Positions 44,718 to 55,522 of a stretch of 64,000 nucleotides of DNA are shown here, in pieces. The DNA lies in the NCBI GenBank assembly GCA_020091685.1, contig CM034604.1:8723682-8787681 (forward strand). Direction: 5' to 3'. The translations under genes and the position numbers were made by a program. Origin of the DNA: Lutjanus erythropterus (taxonomy: Eukaryota; Chordata; Actinopteri; Lutjaniformes; Lutjanidae). The notes under the pieces are model-generated. The model was not told the DNA's origin. It ran no database searches and saw only the letters and a program-made list of their open reading frames with translations. Numbering within the stretch: the first letter of the stretch is position 1; every line of letters begins with the position of its first letter.

Positions 44718-45378
44718 AATTTGATTTGGCGTGTATCTGATCCATCAACCAGCATGTGTTTCATAATCTGATATTTTTTATAAATAATAGTGGAACATAA
44801 ACTGATCTTTATAGTGAAAGAATAGCTTTATTAATTATTATTGCAGGCTCTATATTGCAGGAAATGGTACTTTTATGTACCATTGAATACAAATATTCCT
44901 GCCATGTTCTTCTCTCAACTATAAGGCGCCCACATTCCCAACATTTACAGAAAAGACATTAAAATCATTCCTGTCCACCTATAGGTGAATCCAGTCAAAG
45001 AGGACACTGTTACACCAAGTTGTGTTTCCATCATTTCACTGGACATTACATTGACTTCAATTCATTTTCTGGAGACTCAACCTGACCCCACCCATAACCA
45101 CTACTGGCCTAACTCTAACTCTTACCTTAACTGAACCTAAACACAACCTTAACCAAACGATAAACCAATTCCTCACCCTGAAATTTATGATTTATGTTGT
45201 GTTAGTTTTGTTTCATTTTTTTTATGGGGACTTGCGCTTCATCTCCATAAGGAAGGTGACTCCCCATAATATGAACGTGTAAACAGACTTATATCACAAC
45301 AACATGAGAAACAGACAAACAGTCACGTACGTGTACAGTTTCTCACACTCACGGTTGTAAACTTTTGACATGATATTT

Positions 45379-45423
45379 CACAAGAATGATGGATGAATAA
45401 TCAATTCATTCATCATTCTTGTG
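45379..45423. repeat. Inverted repeat with 20-bp stem and 5-base loop
   Basis: CACAAGAATGATGGATGAAT pairs with ATTCATTCATCATTCTTGTG with one mismatch. Confidence 0.85.
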
Positions 45424-46030
45424 GATGAATAATCAGTTAATCAGTTTTGTCAACTTATTTGGAAAAAGAAAAAACAAGAAATGATTTCACAATGACTGAC
45501 CTGCAGGAATGATTAGAGTAGAAGGTCTTCATCAACAGGTTACCTAAGGGTCAATTTTCTGGTGCTTACACTTACATTTATACTGCTCTCATCTCATTTC
45601 ATACATTTTGCCTTATTAACTCATAATCCAGATTTCTGTCATAAGTATGACATTTTAACACAGAATTCCAACTTTTTAACTGATAATTTTTTAATTTAAA
45701 ATTCCATCTTTTCATGTGTTAATTGTGACTTTTTTAAATCTCACAAGTGTGACTTACCATGGAGATATCCTTTTTTTTACTAGCCAAAAGCTGGCTTCTA
45801 TACAGAGCACCTCCTGAGGCTCCTGAGACAGACAGCAAGTCACTCTGCTCTGGTTTGTGATCCCAGTGACTCTGCTTCACTTCACCCAGCAGCTGAGGAG
45901 CAAGATACAACAACTTCATGAACTTCTTCAGCAGTTCATGTGCAAACTGTAGCCTTCATTGAGGCCTTTTGTTTTCAAGAAAAGTTAAAAATACAATAGA
46001 TATATGTTAATATCTAAATGGAGTGTGGCG

Positions 46031-46091
46031 GGTGAGACAGGTATAATACAGGAGAACCACAGGAGAGGATGTTCATATGAACTCTTCTCTT
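46031..46091. repeat. Exact 61-bp direct repeat, copy 2
   Basis: Identical to 44657-44717, same orientation, start points 1374 bases apart. It lies close to the edge of the LINE patchwork. Confidence 0.9.
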
Positions 46092-46149
46092 GAACACAGT
46101 AAAACCACCCAGTTTGAAGGCAGCAAGTTTCAAGTTTATTTAATTACTC

Positions 46150-47360
46150 TAGACCACACAATGTGGTATGGAGTCCAAACATAAAATAGAGCAAAATAAA
46201 TAGACCAAATATAAAATAGAGCAAAAACACAGTAACCTTAACCCTAAGGCACCTAATTTACCTACTACTCCAGATTTATGTGTCTGTAATAATAATATTA
46301 GTTTAAACATAGATGGATGGTTAACAAAATATTTTTGCAAGTATCTTCTTGAATACTCAACAATGGTTGAATTTTGACATTCAAAGAAAACATGATATTA
46401 ATCACCCAACAATTTATCATTACATAAAGTACAAAACCTTTCATCCCTTTCAAGTCCTTTATATCTTTCTCTTATCTTTATAATTCTGCTACTGGAAACA
46501 CGAAGATTGTAAACAGCCTGGGAGTACCTTCTGTTTTCACAGAGTAGATACTTATCAAACTTAAATTCCTCTTTAAATTCACATTATAGATCACATGATG
46601 ACATACTCTGGAGTTCATTATGACACTTCTGAAGGAAGTGATCTTTTAACCTCTGCTCAACTGTAAACTTCAGCCGAAGGTATAAGAAGCCACATTCATC
46701 TAATATTCACTGACCAAACGTGATCCATGATGATGCATATTAAAATACATAAAGTACATATTAAATAAACAACTATCCAGCTTAGTTTTGTTTCCTTTCC
46801 TCTCAACAAACTCTCCCAATAACCAATAACTCTCTTTTTTAATATTAACACATAGTGAATATCTTCCTAGCTCTCTGTATATCATATTATTACAAGTGGA
46901 CATTTTAACTTTCAGAGTATACTTGAAGAATTTCAGATGTAGCTTCTCTAAATTCTTATTTTCTCAAACCCCCAAACCTCACATGCATAAAGAATAATTG
47001 GTGTCACAGGTCTATGAAAGAGCCAAGTTCCTCCAAAGCAAGTTTAAAAGAGCCAAAAGAACTGATACTTCTTCACATCCAGTTTATGGTTGCCAAATAC
47101 AGTAACTTTACTTTTACTGCTATTTATAACAAACTTCCATTTTTGACAGTAATGACACATTTGATCAATTGAGTCCTTCTTTTGTTGTATCCATTTTGAT
47201 AGTGTCATCTGCGTACATTACTACTATAATTTTAATATAACTATCTATCATGGCATTATTAAGACGAGCCAGTTCACATCCATTTTGTACCAAAAAGTCC
47301 TCCAGGTCATTTATAAATGGTGCAAATAATAGCGGGGATAGATTTTCACCCTGTCAAACT
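46150..47360 (-). pseudogene. LINE ORF2 remnant: reverse transcriptase core and C-terminus
   Basis: Reading right to left, an in-frame stop replaces the residue before QGENLSPLLF (47324-47353). INDLEDFL follows, then MYADDT at 47201-47218, the catalytic YADD of reverse transcriptase. Further on come a KWKFVINSSKSKV stretch and a cysteine-containing C-terminal region near 46400. Frame breaks and stops are frequent, so it is dead. It is probably the same family as the endonuclease fragment at 48500-49400. Confidence 0.75.
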
Positions 47361-47364
47361 CCAG

Positions 47365-47625
47365 ACCACTCCAGGATTTGACTTCTTTAATAAAGACACA
47401 GGACTTAATGTGTTTATAATGTGTATTGCTAATATTGGAGATTAGACCAGCCTCCACAATAAAGTAATCAATTCTAGTGTATGACTGGTGCACATGTGAA
47501 TAAAATGAGTATTCCTTTTCATCTGGATGTTGTATTCTCCAGATGTCTACCATATTTCTACATTTGATTAAACTATTTAATGTCTGAACTGAATTAATTG
47601 TTGGAGGAGATTTAGAAGATGATCT
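47365..47625 (-). pseudogene. L1-type LINE endonuclease fragment
   Basis: The minus strand reads ...SLIKCRNMVDIWRIQHP, then YSFYSHVHQSYTRIDYF, which is the C-terminal part of an L1-clade apurinic endonuclease (DxWR...YT..S...SRIDYF). It is cut on both sides by other LINE sequence. Confidence 0.7.
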
Positions 47626-47626
47626 T

Positions 47627-48496
47627 CTAGGGCACTGTCCCCAACTGCCACGCGATGTTGCAGAGGCGTGTCAACCAAGACAGCCCTACAACATTCAAAG
47701 ACTTGAGGTACTCAGGGCGGATCTCATCCACCCCCGGTGCCTTGCCACTGGGGAGCTTCTGAACTACCTCAGTGACTTCAGCTTGGGTGATGAATGAGTC
47801 AACCTCTGGGTCCCCAGCCTCTGCTTCCTCTACAGAAGGCGTGTCAGTGGGATTGAGAAGATCCTCAAAGTATTCCTTCCACCGTCCAACAATATCCCCA
47901 GTCAAAGTCAACAGCTCCCCACCACCACTGTAAACAGTGTTGGCAGGGTACTGCTTCCCCCTTCTGAGGCGCCGGACAGTTTGCCAGAATCTCCTTGAGG
48001 CCGACCGGTAGTCCTCCTCCATGGCCTCCCCAAACTTTTCCCATACCCAAGTTTTTGCTTCCGCAACCGCCCGGGCCACAGCGTGCTTGGTCTGCCGGTA
48101 CCTGTCAGCTGCCTCAGGAGTCCCATGAGCCAACCAAGCTCGATAAGACTCCTTCTTCAGCCTGACGGCATCCCTTACCTCCAGTGTCCACCACCGGGTT
48201 CGGGGATTGCCACCACGGCAGGCACCGGAGACCTTACGGCCACAGCTCCGAATGGCCGCGTCAACAATGGAGGCAGAGAACATGGTCCATTCGGACTCAA
48301 TGTCTCCAGCCTCCCTCGGGATCTGGTCAAAGCGCTCCCAGAGGTGAGAGTTGAAGACCCCTCTGGTTCCACCAGACGTTCCCAACAGACCCTCACAATA
48401 CATTTGGGCCTGCCAAGTCTGTCCAGCTTCCTCCCCTGCCAGCGGATCCAACTCACCACCACTCACACCATTTGTCCTCCATCCCACCCACCCCAA
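47627..48496 (-). pseudogene. LINE ORF2 internal fragment: linker and start of reverse transcriptase
   Basis: An open frame of 289 codons runs from the region after the endonuclease to the reverse transcriptase entry motif (LPSGKAPGVDEIRPEYLK) and stops right after WQLGTVP, where the sequence changes. It is more GC-rich than its surroundings and still open, so it is younger than the flanking fragments. I recognise the family as a fish non-LTR retrotransposon but cannot fix the clade. It has no endonuclease and no catalytic YADD, so it cannot be active. Confidence 0.85.
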
Positions 48497-48499
48497 AAA

Positions 48500-49400
48500 A
48501 CATTAAAGAAAAACGTCCCAGGCCTTTTAAGTGCTCATAGAAATCTTTCAACTGAACGGGACATTCTTCATCCTTATTATCAGCTAACATATCCCAGTAT
48601 AACTTTGGGTTTTTAACCTTCACGTTGATAAGTTCATTGTTAAATTTCTTTCTATGAGCTCTCCATGCTTTAATTAATTCGCTTTTATATTTATTACTTT
48701 AGAATTTAACTTATATTCATTTTCTCCACCTGTCTTGGGAAAGTGTCAATGAGTCATGATTCTGCATATTTTATCGGTTATTTCATCCACAGACATGGCA
48801 TCCCAATTGAGTAAAAGGTTATCCAATTTATTTAACTGTATATTGCCTACACAGTTCTCTTTTTTCTCCTTGTGCCGATAACCAATTCTTGGCTTGTCTT
48901 GAATAACTGAGTCCTGTAAGCAGTCATGATGTGTCACTGCTTCCTCTTTATAACCTTTATAGTTCCGACACAATACCAGTTCAATACCAGTAACACAATG
49001 GTTATCAGAGAACAGGCAATCAAAGTCATGTGCATAATTTTTTTTTTAACTCTGCCTAATAAAGGTGGAGAGCCTACTACATAGTCAATCACAGTATTAT
49101 CAGTTGAAATAATTTTACCCACATATTTATCTTCCCCACATCTGCCATTCAGGATACAAAGAGGTCTAGGAGGGCAGCCCCATATCCACTATAATCACTA
49201 TAATCAATAAGTATCCATAGACTTTCTCCACCATGGTATTTGAGTCAATTCAATTTTTTAACAGTGTACAAAGTTTCTTGGATGAGCTCATCCATGTCTA
49301 TATCATCTGTCAAGTATTTATCCATAATCCAGTTAATCAAATTCATTATTTTGTTTGACAAATAATCAACCAACACACTTATGTTTTTTGTTTATTTGTT
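48500..49400 (-). pseudogene. LINE endonuclease remnant
   Basis: Minus-strand frames join as VGKIISTDNTVIDYVVGSPP, then CLFSDNHCVT and CRNYKGYKEEAV. This is the ...S.IDYV...SD.H pattern of an APE-type endonuclease. Several frameshifts and stops interrupt it. Confidence 0.6.
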
Positions 49401-49825
49401 AATGCCAGCATGTAGACATGAAGATTATCGATGTGAAGGTGCGCCGTCACAGAGAATACTGTATTTCAACTGCGTTAAGGTGCACCATCACCTGTTAAAC
49501 TATATATTTTTCATCCATGTCTTGGCCTTAGTATTATGACTCTTCCTCTAAATCACAGCTGTGCATTTTGCTAATGTTCGTCATTTTAAAGCTGCATACT
49601 TTCACTTCTTTCATTCATTGACGCTACATTATATTATGTTGTGAGGCATGGCCCCATTTGATAATGTTACATTAGGGCACAATGGTGACTATTTACGCCA
49701 CTGAGGCCAAGATAAATATTTTACTTGTTCTGACAGGAATTCAGGGAGTGAAAGTGATGAAATGGAATTGATGATTACCAATAATTCATGTGTTTAGAAA
49801 AGGTGGTGAACCTTCGCAAGAAGTG
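49401..49825. other. Upstream region of the MABP-repeat gene
   Basis: Non-coding. Nothing recognised before the C/EBP-like site and TATA box. Confidence 0.5.
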
Positions 49826-49856
49826 ATTGCACAACGATCCACAGCATCTCTTGTCT

Positions 49857-49944
49857 CTATATAAAGACAGCTGAGTGTTGGTCAGTACAGACTTCAGCAG
49901 ACCAGCTGTCTTCTTACTGCCGAACATTCACTGTCAGCAGACAC
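49857..49944 (+). promoter_or_regulatory. TATA box and non-coding exon 1 of the MABP-repeat gene
   Basis: CTATATAAAG at 49857-49866 is a strong TATA box. Transcription would start near 49890, and the exon would end at 49944 with the donor GTAAGT. A near-consensus C/EBP site, ATTGCACAAC, is at 49826-49835, about 30 bases before the TATA box. The acceptor that pairs with this donor is at 51451-51452. The promoter is inferred from motifs and spacing only. Confidence 0.6.
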
Positions 49945-50089
49945 GTAAGTGTTCAACACTTTATTATTCTCTTGATGTGGAACGTATATTGTCTGTTTCA
50001 CATCTTAATCCATGATATTCAGTATCAGTAGTGTCAATGGGTTCAGTATGTATGCACATTTAAAATATTATTTTAGATGTCATTATGAT

Positions 50090-50960
50090 AGTCCCGTCAA
50101 ACGATTAAAATATTTAATCATGATTAATTGCATGAGTGTCTGTAGTTAATCGTGATTAATCACAAATTAATCACACATTTTTTTATTTGTTCAAAATGTA
50201 CCTTAAAGGGATATTTTTCAAGTGTTTAATAATGGACAAATACGTTTGCTTTATGCAAATGTAAGTGTATTAAATAAAATATTGTCCAGAAACCCTCAAA
50301 GGCACTGCATTTCCTATAAAAAGAATCTGTTCAAATAATAACATGACAAATCCAAGTCCATCATGCACAGATGAACATATTGACCTGCTCAATTTAAGGC
50401 CAAAACGCACTAAAAGCTTCAATAGAAAAGTCAATTAAAACTTATACGGCGCACTGCAGGCTTCAGATTTAAAATTCCAACACCACAGAACCAGCTGTAT
50501 TTTAGGAGAAGGTCACTATTTATATGCATTTATGTATTTATTTAGTGATATTAATGTTAATAATGGTTTATTTCTGTAATAAAATATTGTCATCTGAGGA
50601 CAGCTTTATTCAGTTCAGTCTATATAATGATGAAACGCTGCGCGATATTCTTGTTTTTGTATAAAGTGAGCCAGATCATTTACATCAGTGAGGATGTTTT
50701 AGACCACAGCAAAGAGCAAACTGCACACAGACACACACCGAGGAGATGAAGAGGGAGAGACAGAGTCTGGACACTTCATCATGACTTATAATAATGCAGC
50801 ACAGTGACAACACAGACACAGGCAGATATTTTACTCTGTAGTTATGTAGTACTCATAGTTATGATCAATCAGCATGAAGTAATTAAGTACCACAGATGTG
50901 TAACATGATTCATGAACATAAAGTTTGTATATTGAGTCGACACATCTGTCCATATGCACA

Positions 50961-51001
<41 letters not shown>

Positions 51002-51325
51002 TGTGTGGATCAGCTGTACTTTTACTTTGACCTTGTTTCAGGTGGAGCTGCAGTTTGATCAACACTCTCTCTCCTCTCCCTCCTCCTATACTTATATTTC
51101 TTTACACTGAGCCAGTTGCCTAAACAGACAAACCTGTTTACATTGTCAGGTAGTAGGGAAGCTTGTTTCTTCACGACTGCGAGTTGATTCATTTCTGGCA
51201 GCTGATTCAAACTATGTGTCTGGCCAGTATAACAGAACATGTGTTAATCAAGTGTCAACAAAAATAGTGGCGTTAAAAGGAATTTGCGTAAATGTGTTAT
51301 TATCACATTAACTTTGACGGTCTAT
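50090..51325. mobile_element. Non-autonomous hAT-like element in intron 1 of the MABP-repeat gene
   Basis: The left end AGTCCCGTCAAACG and the right end (reverse complement ATAGACCGTCAAAG) form imperfect terminal inverted repeats. The flanks ATTATGAT (50082-50089) and ATTATAAT (51326-51333) are an 8-base duplication with one mismatch. The left interior is rich in ATTAATC/GATTAAT units. There is no transposase frame. A (CT)n run at 50962-50999 lies inside. Confidence 0.65.
50962..50999. repeat. (CT)n microsatellite
   Basis: Pure CT run inside the hAT-like element of the MABP-repeat gene. Confidence 0.95.
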
Positions 51326-51450
51326 ATTATAATGATCCATATTTGATAAGTGATATTTGTCCTGATTATATTGGAGCTCAGCTGAAAAGACAGTCATGCT
51401 GTTAACTGTATGTCTTATTCTGTTTACTCATGATCTTCTTTCTTCTCTTC

Positions 51451-51452
51451 AG
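51451..51452 (+). promoter_or_regulatory. Splice acceptor deciding the MABP-repeat start
   Basis: TTCTTTCTTCTCTTCAG ends at 51452. It explains why the open frame extends upstream to 51396 without that part being likely coding sequence. Confidence 0.75.
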
Positions 51453-51461
51453 TTGCCCACA

Positions 51462-52343
51462 ATGTCCAAGTACATCACACACCTTACGGTGTCCCTTGAT
51501 CAAGCTGATGAGCAAAGGCTCCAACATCATGGCTTCAAGAAAATTAATGTTGATCTGAACAAAGGGGCAGGAGGAAACTACATCTATCTTTGGTACAAGC
51601 ATGGCTCAGTGGCAATCACCAGGCTTCAACTTACATTCAACGATCATATGGCTCTTGGATTGATCAATGCAGGGTACACAAAGATCCCTGAAGACCTCAA
51701 CGCTGGAGAAAAGGGTGACATCATCAACCTGTGGTTCTTTAGAGGGCAAACAGAGTACGACACTCCCATCGTGGAGGTTGATGTCACTACAGATGTTCAT
51801 GCTGAAGCCAACAAGTTTGGCCATGGCTGGGAGAGACTGGCCTGTGATCTGAACCGCAACGCTGGTGGAGCCTGGATCCACATCTGGGTGAAGAGAGAGA
51901 AGCAAACCTACATCTGTGATGTCACTGCCACTGATTCCTACGCATCAGACGCTGACAAATTCAAGCAAGGTTACATCCGTGTGGATGAAGATACTAACAG
52001 AGGGGCAAGAGGAGCCTATGTCTTCATCTGGTACCGTCAGACCACCGACCCCAAACGGGCTCTCACTAATCTAAAAGTCTCCACCAATGATCGTGAGTAT
52101 CAGCAGCTTCAGCAGCAAAATTACCAGCCAGTGAGTGTCAACCTCAACGAGGGGACCAGCGGTAACCTGGAGTACCTGTGGTACAAGAAAGAAGATATCA
52201 GCACTCCCATCAAGGCCACCACCCTGCTTCTCAACACATATGCTGCTGACGCATATGAGAAGGCTGGTGTCGATGTTGTTGGAAATCTCAACACAGGCAA
52301 TGGAGGCTGTACTGAGTTCCTGTGTGTTTATCAGAAAGCCTGA
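51462..52343 (+). CDS. Six-repeat MABP/beta-prism-like protein, function unknown
   Basis: A single coding exon encodes 293 residues. Six repeats of about 47 residues run at 4-47, 50-96, 102-147, 149-195, 199-245 and 249-292. Each has a helix-like acidic/Q-rich stretch, then G-aromatic-x(6), an L/T-N pair (L32N33, L79N80, L130N131, T178N179, L228N229, L276N277), a glycine turn, and I/L-W-Y (W44, W91, W142, W190, W240; C288 in the last). This DLNxGAGG...YLWYK pattern is that of MABP domains (MVB12, DENND4), which fold as three-fold beta-prisms. Six repeats therefore suggest two prisms. The start was chosen because AG at 51451-51452, after a C/T tract, puts ATG 51462 nine bases into the exon. 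No signal peptide or membrane segment appears in this form. An in-frame upstream ATG at 51396 lies in the intron. AATAAA at 52655 ends the gene. Confidence 0.85.
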   Translation: MSKYITHLTVSLDQADEQRLQHHGFKKINVDLNKGAGGNYIYLWYKHGSVAITRLQLTFNDHMALGLINAGYTKIPEDLNAGEKGDIINLWFFRGQTEYDTPIVEVDVTTDVHAEANKFGHGWERLACDLNRNAGGAWIHIWVKREKQTYICDVTATDSYASDADKFKQGYIRVDEDTNRGARGAYVFIWYRQTTDPKRALTNLKVSTNDREYQQLQQQNYQPVSVNLNEGTSGNLEYLWYKKEDISTPIKATTLLLNTYAADAYEKAGVDVVGNLNTGNGGCTEFLCVYQKA

Positions 52344-52654
52344 GAAAGTCTTCTTCATGTTAACAGAGCTGAGAATCCTACACACAAGTAGAAAGCACTG
52401 TCTAACAATGTTGTTATATCATTTGGGGATCATTTAACTTCTTCTCTTTTTCTATATAAAACAATGCGATTCATTATATTACAGTACTACTGCTGATATC
52501 AGAAAGTATCAATGGTGTATGAGTTTTATTGTTTTACTTGATGTCAGTCAAATCAATCAAACTATTTCAATTGTCTACTTTTCAACAATGATATTAATGA
52601 ATGATTCAATATTAGAACTCTGTATCACTTTATTCTGCACATTTCCTGCTTTTC

Positions 52655-52660
52655 AATAAA
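52655..52660 (+). promoter_or_regulatory. Polyadenylation signal of the MABP-repeat gene
   Basis: AATAAA lies 312 bases after the stop, followed by GT-rich sequence from about 52675 (GAAATGTGTTTG). Confidence 0.7.
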
Positions 52661-52679
52661 GACACTTTTGCATGTGAAA

Positions 52680-55522
52680 TGTGTTTGCTTCAGTTTCTAC
52701 ACTTTAGAAACTTTACTTTGAATTTTAAATGTTTATTCATCATCTTATTCTCATCACTGTTATCATGCTATCAGATCAGGGCCCATATTCATTAAATTGC
52801 CAAAATAAGTTACATTTTGGACCAATGTTACATTTAAAGTAAAAATCCTTCATTTGCAAACTTAAGATTAACTTAAGGATTTTGTTTAACTTAAAACTGC
52901 TCAAGCTGGTTAAGAGTAGATCTTACATGACTCCTGTCCAGTAACACCTTCAGTGGGCTGGTGACTCAAAAACTGGGGAGGACAGGAGGAAAACCAACAT
53001 CACAGTGTCATATTATTTTACAATATTTGGTCATTGATCTCTACTTTCTGATGAGAAATGAAAAATTAAGCTGTAAAACAAAGGCCTACACAGTTAATCT
53101 TTACTTGCCTCTGTAGAAGTTCTTATATTAGTTGTTATTAAATAACAACAAAGACTAAAGTTAGGCTGTCATGTTTAATTCAAGACTGTAACATCTACAA
53201 ATTGTCAGAATGTCACAGCTTTTCAAAGTCCAGGGTCTTTAAATGTCTCATTTTTGTCTCAGTATTAATCAAGCGTGTGGATACGTGGGCCAAATTACAA
53301 CAGTAATATACATTTAGTTGTCAGTTTCTGAGTTAATACAGTCAAATACAGCAGAAACTCAATAAAGCCTGCTTTCAAAAAAGTAGAGTTTTTTTTATTG
53401 AGGTGTTGATTCAACTGTATTTCTCCATTGGGAAGGCTGTTTATGTTGCTGTTGAATTGTATTGCATTACACTTGGTGGTATTTCTAATATTTAAGTCTG
53501 TCGTCCCTGATTCAAATAGATGTGGACAGAACAACTCCTGCTAGAACAAATACAATGCAGTCAACAGCTGGGAAGCACAGCTGCTGTATTACACTGCATA
53601 AGATTTAGCTCACTTCAGGGTAACCTTATAAAATATCCACGGAGTGACAGCAAGAGAAAACACTTCAGCCAAAAGAAGATATGTCACAAACTGTTCAAAC
53701 TGTCATTAATTTAATCATAATGTTACTTTAATCACTCATCCTGAGCTGCAGTTTTATGACCAGTGTGGCAGCGGGTGTCTGTCTTTTGCTTCCTTTTGCA
53801 CCACCTTGAAGGTGCTGTTCTTGTTTATTCATGCATTCTCCCAGTCTTACATCAAACCATTTGACCTCTTAACTCCTTCACAGGTGCCCAAAGCCGGGTG
53901 TTCAAACTTTTCAGCGACAGTTCAGACTGTCTGACCCATGTTTGCTATTTTAACTCAAACAATGGTTTCAACATTAATCTACATTATAGCCAAGAAAATC
54001 ATTACAACTAAAAATATAGCTCTAACGAGGTGATAGCTTCCTTATTATTATTACTTATTTCTAGATGTCTAACTTACGGATTTAAAGGAGCAAAGTCAAG
54101 TGAAAATCCTCCATGCTATTCAGCAGCAGTCTGTCACCCATATCCAGTCCTGGCTGCGAGTCTATTCCAGCTGCTGAGGCTGGTGCAGACACACCACATC
54201 TGTATGTCTTGACGTACATCATATCCACAATCACAACTATACCTCACGTTTCTGCAAATGAGGTCCATCCAACGCAACGAAGCAGATTCACAAAAGTCCA
54301 ATCAAACTGTCAAATTAGGCAATTCTGTTAAAATATGAATCAAGATTTTGTTACTGCATTGCCTATTTCTTGCCTAAAATGATTTCAGAAACATATTTTA
54401 GTGTTTACCTGAAAAATTAAAAAGCTTGTGACCAGGCTGCTACAGTTGAAAACAAACACAAAATCATGCAGTGCCCACTGGCGGGAGCATGAGCGCTCAA
54501 GATCCATCAGCCCCGGCTTTGGTGTCTCTGCACCACAAGAGCAGAGTGGATCCATCAGCTCCTCTGTGACTTCCTGACACTGCCTTAGTCCCCAGTCCAA
54601 ATCCATTCTCACTGTTAGTTTAACATTCCTTCAGGGCTTTTATGTTATGTAATATCTTATTTTGGCTAAAGCAAATGAGCAACTACTTGAATTAAAGAAA
54701 TGGAAACATAAATCTGAAAAAATTACTTTGTTCAAAACACCTAAATAAAATGTATTTTTATGGTTTATATTCTTCAGTTATTTTTATACTTATTTGTAGC
54801 TCTTTAGAATTGTTGAAATGATTACCATTGCAAGGAAGTAATTTAAAGGTTTTCTGGCCAGTTAGAGTGTAGCATGAAAAAAAATGAAGCATATTAAATT
54901 GATAAGACCCTGCATTAGAAGAGGACAACATGGCAGGAGCACATCCTCCTCTGGGACGTGACTCACCCCTCTGTGTGAGGAGACAAACCTAGAAAGAAAA
55001 ACCACTTCAGTACTAAAGCCTGTTCCCTGTGGTCAAACTAGCCCCACATGGTCTCAGAGTAGGGTGACCAGATGTCCTCAAGAATTAGGTACAGTCCCAA
55101 AGTACAAATATTCCTCAAAATCCTGTCCTGTTTTTCCTGAAAATTGTTGTAGTACAGTACAGTATGATAGTATAGCATAAAACTGTTATAATAGATCATA
55201 TCAACAGTATATGAATCTGTGAAAATATGACCAAACCACTAATGTAGGCTAGAATTCCTGCTTTTTGTTATTAAAAATGTCCCATTTCTTTTTGAAAAGA
55301 ATGTATTGTAATAAACATCAACTGCTTCAGGCCCATTTAATGGCACCTCCCCTACATACTTTACAGTGATAACTGTCATAAAAACACATCCTTGACATGT
55401 GTGAGTATTACTGATGTGTTTTCATTTGCATTGATTAGCCAGACAATAACGGATTGTTGATGTCATTTGATCTGTTTCAATCAGTGCAGCCGCCACTGCT
55501 AGAGGACACACTGTGCTACTGG
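52680..55522. other. Intergenic, no gene seen
   Basis: GGGCCCATATTCATTAAATT at 52779 looks like a repeat end. The dispersed array unit at 54290 lies here. Confidence 0.5.
54290..54460. repeat. Single dispersed unit of the 4471-5133 array
   Basis: It carries the same blocks in order: CAAACTGTCAAATTAGGCA, GATTTTGTTACTGCATTGCC, TCAGAAACATATTTTAGTGT and GACCAGGCTGC, in the same orientation as the array 49 kb away. Confidence 0.65.

Follow-up and report, generated by a model that had tools for sequence, protein, structure and literature searches.

The 64,000-nucleotide stretch of Lutjanus erythropterus DNA that we analysed, referred to here as the window, carries on its forward strand a gene whose reading frame stays open across 293 residues (Table 1). 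A preliminary description of this DNA had placed a single-exon gene with its own TATA promoter at this locus. The presence of the gene is confirmed by the open frame and by six copies of a motif within it, and the single exon holds for the coding part. The gene as a whole, however, likely has an intron in its 5' UTR, and the promoter is without support here, since the only TATA[AT]A[AT] matches in the scanned stretch (50001-51462), at 50315 and 50621, lie far from the ATG.

Table 1. Features of the gene and its encoded protein, in window positions
Feature	Residues or motif	Positions	Strand	Remark
Likely 5' UTR intron		51042..51452	+	411 bases; inferred from splice-site scores
Upstream in-frame extension		51396..51461	+	own ATG and hydrophobic lead; inside likely intron
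Coding sequence	293 residues + stop	51462..52343	+	one exon
Predicted beta-prism 1	residues 1-147	51462..51902	+	repeats 1-3
Repeat 1, DLNKG	DLN, residues 31-33	51552..51560	+	predicted metal loop; Asn kept 62/62
Repeat 2, DLNAG	DLN, residues 78-80	51693..51701	+	predicted metal loop; Asn kept 58/62
Repeat 3, DLNRN	DLN, residues 129-131	51846..51854	+	predicted metal loop; Asn kept 61/62
Predicted beta-prism 2	residues 148-293	51903..52340	+	repeats 4-6
Repeat 4, DTNRG	DTN, residues 177-179	51990..51998	+	predicted metal loop; Asn kept 56/62
Repeat 5, NLNEG	NLN, residues 227-229	52140..52148	+	predicted metal loop; Asn kept 56/62
Repeat 6, NLNTG	NLN, residues 275-277	52284..52292	+	predicted metal loop; Asn kept 59/62
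Poly(A) signal	AATAAA	52655..52660	+	

The acceptor of the putative intron, 51452|51453, lies 9 bases 5' of the ATG (...TTCTTTCTTCTCTTCAG|TTGCCCACA) and ranked first among the sites from 51060 to 51470 when these were given a simple score, while the donor, 51041|51042 (CAG|GTGGAG), came fifth under similar scoring between about 50000 and 51440. Joining the two keeps the frame, giving ...SCTFTLTLFQ-LPTMSKY without an earlier in-frame ATG, and the relative P0007 reads ...NSLTFTVSRH-LPTMAKY; it is this join and this reading that make the intron likely. Translation from an in-frame ATG at 51396 would extend the protein by a 22-residue hydrophobic lead, but because this extension falls within the likely intron it is probably not translated. 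In the 293-residue form, which has a pI of 5.92, no signal peptide was visible by eye.

About 36.8 kb downstream and outside the window, near C14:8811989-8812820, lies a second copy. Aligned with the gene and its flanks over 5,482 columns, it shows 54 mismatches, 62 deletions and 9 insertions. It belongs to a longer region (C14:8803056-8815917, loci L087-L088) that nearly duplicates about 10 kb of sequence from the window, gene included, but is rich in deletions, and similarity to it runs in pieces over window positions 44765-55514. Judging from the sequence differences, the second copy is probably a duplicate left unpolished in the assembly and not a gene in decay, and we therefore limit our claim to one intact gene copy. 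Elsewhere in the window, the reverse strand at 47627-48502 contains a 291-residue frame that had no Pfam match at 0.01 and that, we presume, resembles the linker region found in reverse transcriptases of the LINE type.

Repeats, fold and predicted metal loops

The six repeats reported in the preliminary description are real. The six ungapped 26-mers that score highest as a set reached 274, compared to a mean of 42 (SD 10, maximum 77) for 200 shuffles, and the first half of the protein scored 133 against the second, compared to a shuffle mean of 28 (maximum 43, n = 200). Of the repeat signature, said to be an LN-x-G turn followed by a W-Y strand, the turn stands, with L-N in five of six repeats (repeat 4 has T-N) and N-x-G likewise in five (repeat 3 has N-R-N). 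The strand is less strict, as a Trp is found there in five repeats, with Cys in repeat 6, and the exact Trp-Tyr pair in three.

The protein had further been read as an MABP-like, probable double beta-prism, with structure prediction proposed as a check. AlphaFold2 models yielded two three-fold prisms with pLDDT values of 92.6 and 92.1, and in a structure search each prism matched Mpf2Ba1, Plu-MACPF and MVB12B, such that both halves resemble solved MABP domains. Similarity to Mpf2Ba1 was also detected by sequence (E 8e-13, or 9e-18 using the family profile). On the strength of these models, we predict with high confidence that the protein consists of two tandem MABP-type beta-prisms. The resemblance to MABP domains is structural and does not extend to the curated Pfam models: neither PF10240 (MVB12, ESCRT-I) nor PF22356 matched the protein at E values up to 1, and plain Pfam membership was rejected. 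Both models were also absent among the 25 listed of 52 Pfam families matched by 62 family members. All 52 matches were weak, the widest being a spider-toxin model (19 members, best E 0.0037) and the strongest DUF3124 (E 6e-5, 15 members), and because they are scattered across unrelated folds we took them as chance. The protein has no match to the MACPF model PF01823, both halves of the chain being accounted for by prisms.

The repeat turns coincide with a known metal-binding motif. According to excerpts of the published structural account, three DLN motifs of Mpf2Ba1 use the carbonyl of their Leu and the side chain of their Asn to bind a Mg2+ that sits on the three-fold axis, and these loops are drawn at its 'C-terminal membrane binding site'. 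All three DLN motifs of the fish prism 1 align with those of Mpf2Ba1. The second prism also carries three loops of this type, with DTN and NLN variants, and at each of the six places between 56 and 62 of the 62 aligned proteins retain the motif Asn; zebrafish si:dkey-30j10.5 retains all six. Conservation of the six Asn, together with the Mpf2Ba1 motif, leads us to predict two metal sites per chain, one in each prism; by analogy with Mpf2Ba1, the ion at each three-fold axis would be Ca2+ or Mg2+.

Relatives in fishes and microbes

The lineage spread of the gene, for which a search of teleost proteomes had been suggested, proved to be wide: the protein is one of a large family of teleost proteins, with zebrafish among its carriers. 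A protein search with the fish sequence returned 253 matches at E <= 1e-3, and among the 120 of these listed, all organism-named matches were teleost except for the labels of P0007 and P0113, the latter carrying both tilapia and ferret labels. P0007 is a fish-like family member on a 1256-base contig labelled Salmonella enterica, and its presence in a bacterial assembly record is probably due to contamination. Proteins of other fishes are about 70% identical to the Lutjanus protein. When a relative from a minnow served as query, 231 matches were obtained, and the 120 listed include zebrafish si:dkey-30j10.5 (P0180), which is 46% identical to the Lutjanus protein over 290 columns. The zebrafish protein falls in the same length range and has six xLN/xTN motifs, placing it in the same family despite its diverged sequence; homology to the teleost si:dkey-30j10.5 family is thus full-length and spans all six repeats.

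In a tree of 50 hand-picked family members, 14 Cypriniformes (support 100/100), 3 Esociformes (100/99) and 33 others, comprising percomorphs and one cyprinid (99/93), each formed a clade. These groupings indicate that the double prism predates all three groups. The one cyprinid in the third clade, P0032, labelled Leuciscus waleckii, groups with Percidae (Sander vitreus, 76% identity, support 91/95), and keeping all cypriniform rows together was rejected (p-AU 0.0015). Both a fish-to-fish transfer and a mislabelled or mixed assembly are possible.

Copy number differs between fishes among the matches listed, with at least seven entries for Culter alburnus and at least six for Megalobrama amblycephala, in each case apparently on one contig, among the 120 of 231 listed. 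The family is mostly acidic, with a median pI of 5.70 for 62 members and only seven of them above 7. A longer N-terminal lead was listed for 13 relatives, at least three of which (P0015, P0100 and P0113) appear signal-peptide-like by eye. A 476-residue protein of Fundulus diaphanus (P0119) seems to continue beyond its first six repeats with further prism repeats that are degenerate.

With 120 of 253 and 120 of 231 matches listed, non-teleost relatives may have gone unseen among the rest. A query of prism 1 alone (148 residues) found 28 proteins, consisting of named fish pieces, two short pieces and 14 metagenome or read-archive proteins (P0133-P0146; E 1e-7 to 8e-18), the last being mostly single prisms with signal-peptide-like starts as judged by eye. 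A scan of bacterial and archaeal genome contigs and of viral contigs with the fish alignment (A1) yielded no relative. An alignment of 13 microbial rows and fish prism 1 (A2) revealed relatives encoded at 185 places in the genomes of bacteria and archaea, of which 79 loci were kept, and viral contigs gave two more. Conversely, a profile of the 13 microbial A2 rows recovered the Lutjanus protein with an E value of 9e-50 in a set of 108 sequences, establishing homology beyond chance to the DLN-type prisms of bacterial MACPF and free prism proteins. In a Pfam scan of 20 of the 81 loci, the prism was joined to a MACPF domain in 14, accompanied by other domains in three (metallophosphatase with dockerin; chitobiase C-terminal; beta-helix) and without a second domain in three; PF22356 exceeded its cut-off in three of the 20. 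By sequence, the nearest kin outside fish, among the matches listed, are microbial free single prisms and MACPF-linked prisms.

In addition, nine loci, mostly from Bacteroidota, encode bacterial proteins of more than 1,400 residues with DLN prism motifs (L041, L047, L057, L060, L068, L072, L073, L075 and L079), most of which run past the end of the available stretch. On one viral contig (L085, 1274-4375), a 1,034-residue protein carries a DLN prism together with a beta-helix and a phospholipase A2-like match that stays below threshold. Viral kin as such were rejected, with no BFVD match at E <= 0.001.

The fish prism is 35% identical to a bacterial prism versus 16% to human MVB12B. The fish has MVB12-type matches of its own on C3, C9 and C18, and D-L-N-x-G is absent from those exon frames that were read, on C18 and on C3. 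We built a tree of 85 prisms, comprising 24 fish prisms and 61 of 93 microbial proteins, the rest lacking any one match that spans 100 profile positions. The first prisms of the fish proteins formed one clade and the second prisms another (100/100 each), and a single clade of both was not rejected (p-AU 0.505); in the free tree three bacterial rows stood beside the fish prisms with weak support. Because MVB12, DENND4, MPEG1 and invertebrate prisms are absent from this tree, horizontal transfer of the prism from bacteria is only a candidate. A tentative and rather improbable scenario is that an early teleost gained the gripping prism of a bacterial MACPF or free prism protein horizontally and doubled it into a protein with two prisms and two metal ions, giving rise to a lineage-expanding macrophage family that would detect damaged or foreign membranes bivalently. 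The fish family would then perhaps be a bacterial module taken over by fish.

Possible function and comparison with known systems

The preliminary description had the fold right and was cautious on function. Relative to it, our analysis adds the predicted metal loops, the microbial kin, a teleost family reaching zebrafish, the likely 5' UTR intron and a lead to macrophages. This lead comes from a table in a nanoplastics review citing Deng et al. 2023, in which si:dkey-30j10.5 is listed for zebrafish liver macrophages and, by cell order, falls in the down-regulated column with lygl1, MFAP4, c1qb and c1qc (PMC12163001). A second source for macrophage expression was not found among the literature matches listed, nor did the open-access main texts searched provide a function for si:dkey-30j10.5 or anything relevant on MABP-domain proteins in fish or teleosts (one match being unrelated by title). 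The MABP domain of MPEG1 binds negatively charged lipids and membranes, according to excerpts of the published work (PMC6753088).

From the liver-macrophage listing and the lipid binding of MPEG1, we infer that in fish phagocytes the protein binds membranes, or glycans on them, in a bivalent manner through two MABP-type prisms that are each metal-closed, and assign this reading a probability of about 0.5. The presence of several gene copies on one contig in some fishes also speaks for it. Each prism would be closed by a Ca2+ or Mg2+ ion held in three D-L-N-like loops and, judging from MVB12B, MPEG1 and bacterial MACPF proteins, would grip a surface glycan or a membrane. A chain with two prisms would gain avidity or bridge two surfaces; it has no pore-forming domain. 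As the 293-residue form has no visible signal peptide, it may act in the cytosol, for example on damaged vesicles, while the signal-peptide-like starts of some relatives suggest that these act outside the cell. The acidic pI of the protein and its family counts against plain charge-based membrane binding.

Beta-prisms are a common lectin fold, and a possible but less probable reading is that the prisms bind sugars instead of lipids, a two-site chain then clumping microbes or bridging glycoproteins. The acidity of the family and the three relatives with signal-peptide-like starts would suit such a role. Against it, no lectin appeared in the Pfam matches or among the structure matches listed, an absence that proves little, and excerpts of the literature describe membrane binding for the nearest prisms of solved structure. 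It is unlikely that the protein guides to its target a separate pore-former with a MACPF domain, such as a perforin or an MPEG1-like protein, in the manner of a split bacterial MACPF-prism chain. The joining of the same prism to MACPF in most bacterial relatives scanned favours this idea, but no MACPF match was found in the ten long frames searched within the window, and no partner is known. An ESCRT-like role, in which the protein would serve as an adaptor for trafficking in the cytosol, is more doubtful still, given the low identity to MVB12B, a chain with no other domain, a copy number that varies between the fishes listed and the separate MVB12-type matches in the genome. Finally, although rare residues occur at conserved places and the second copy has many small deletions, a decaying, functionless gene in L. 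erythropterus is very improbable in view of 293 codons without a stop, the roughly 70% identity to other fishes' proteins, the six retained Asn and the likeness of the second copy to an unpolished assembly duplicate.

The MABP prisms known to date occur singly, as domains that direct larger machines (ESCRT-I, MPEG1, bacterial MACPF proteins) towards membranes. The free double prisms of teleosts offer a readily testable case of a membrane-gripping module used alone in animal immunity. Mpf2Ba1 carries a single C-terminal beta-prism on a MACPF protein (PDB 8b6u, 8b6v), whereas the fish protein has two in tandem and no MACPF domain; PF22356, 'MACPF/perforin-like, beta-prism domain', covers prisms of the Mpf2Ba1 type and leaves the fish protein unmatched. 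The free microbial prisms (P0133-P0145; L006-L009 and L012) share the same repeat, with DLN-x-GAGG and no MACPF domain seen in the chain, but comprise one prism and mostly have signal-peptide-like starts. The MABP domain of human MVB12B (PDB 3tow), 16% and 15% identical to the two fish prisms, is likewise a single domain, in an ESCRT-I subunit. With MPEG1/Perforin-2, the fish protein would share a membrane-binding MABP domain borne by a macrophage protein.
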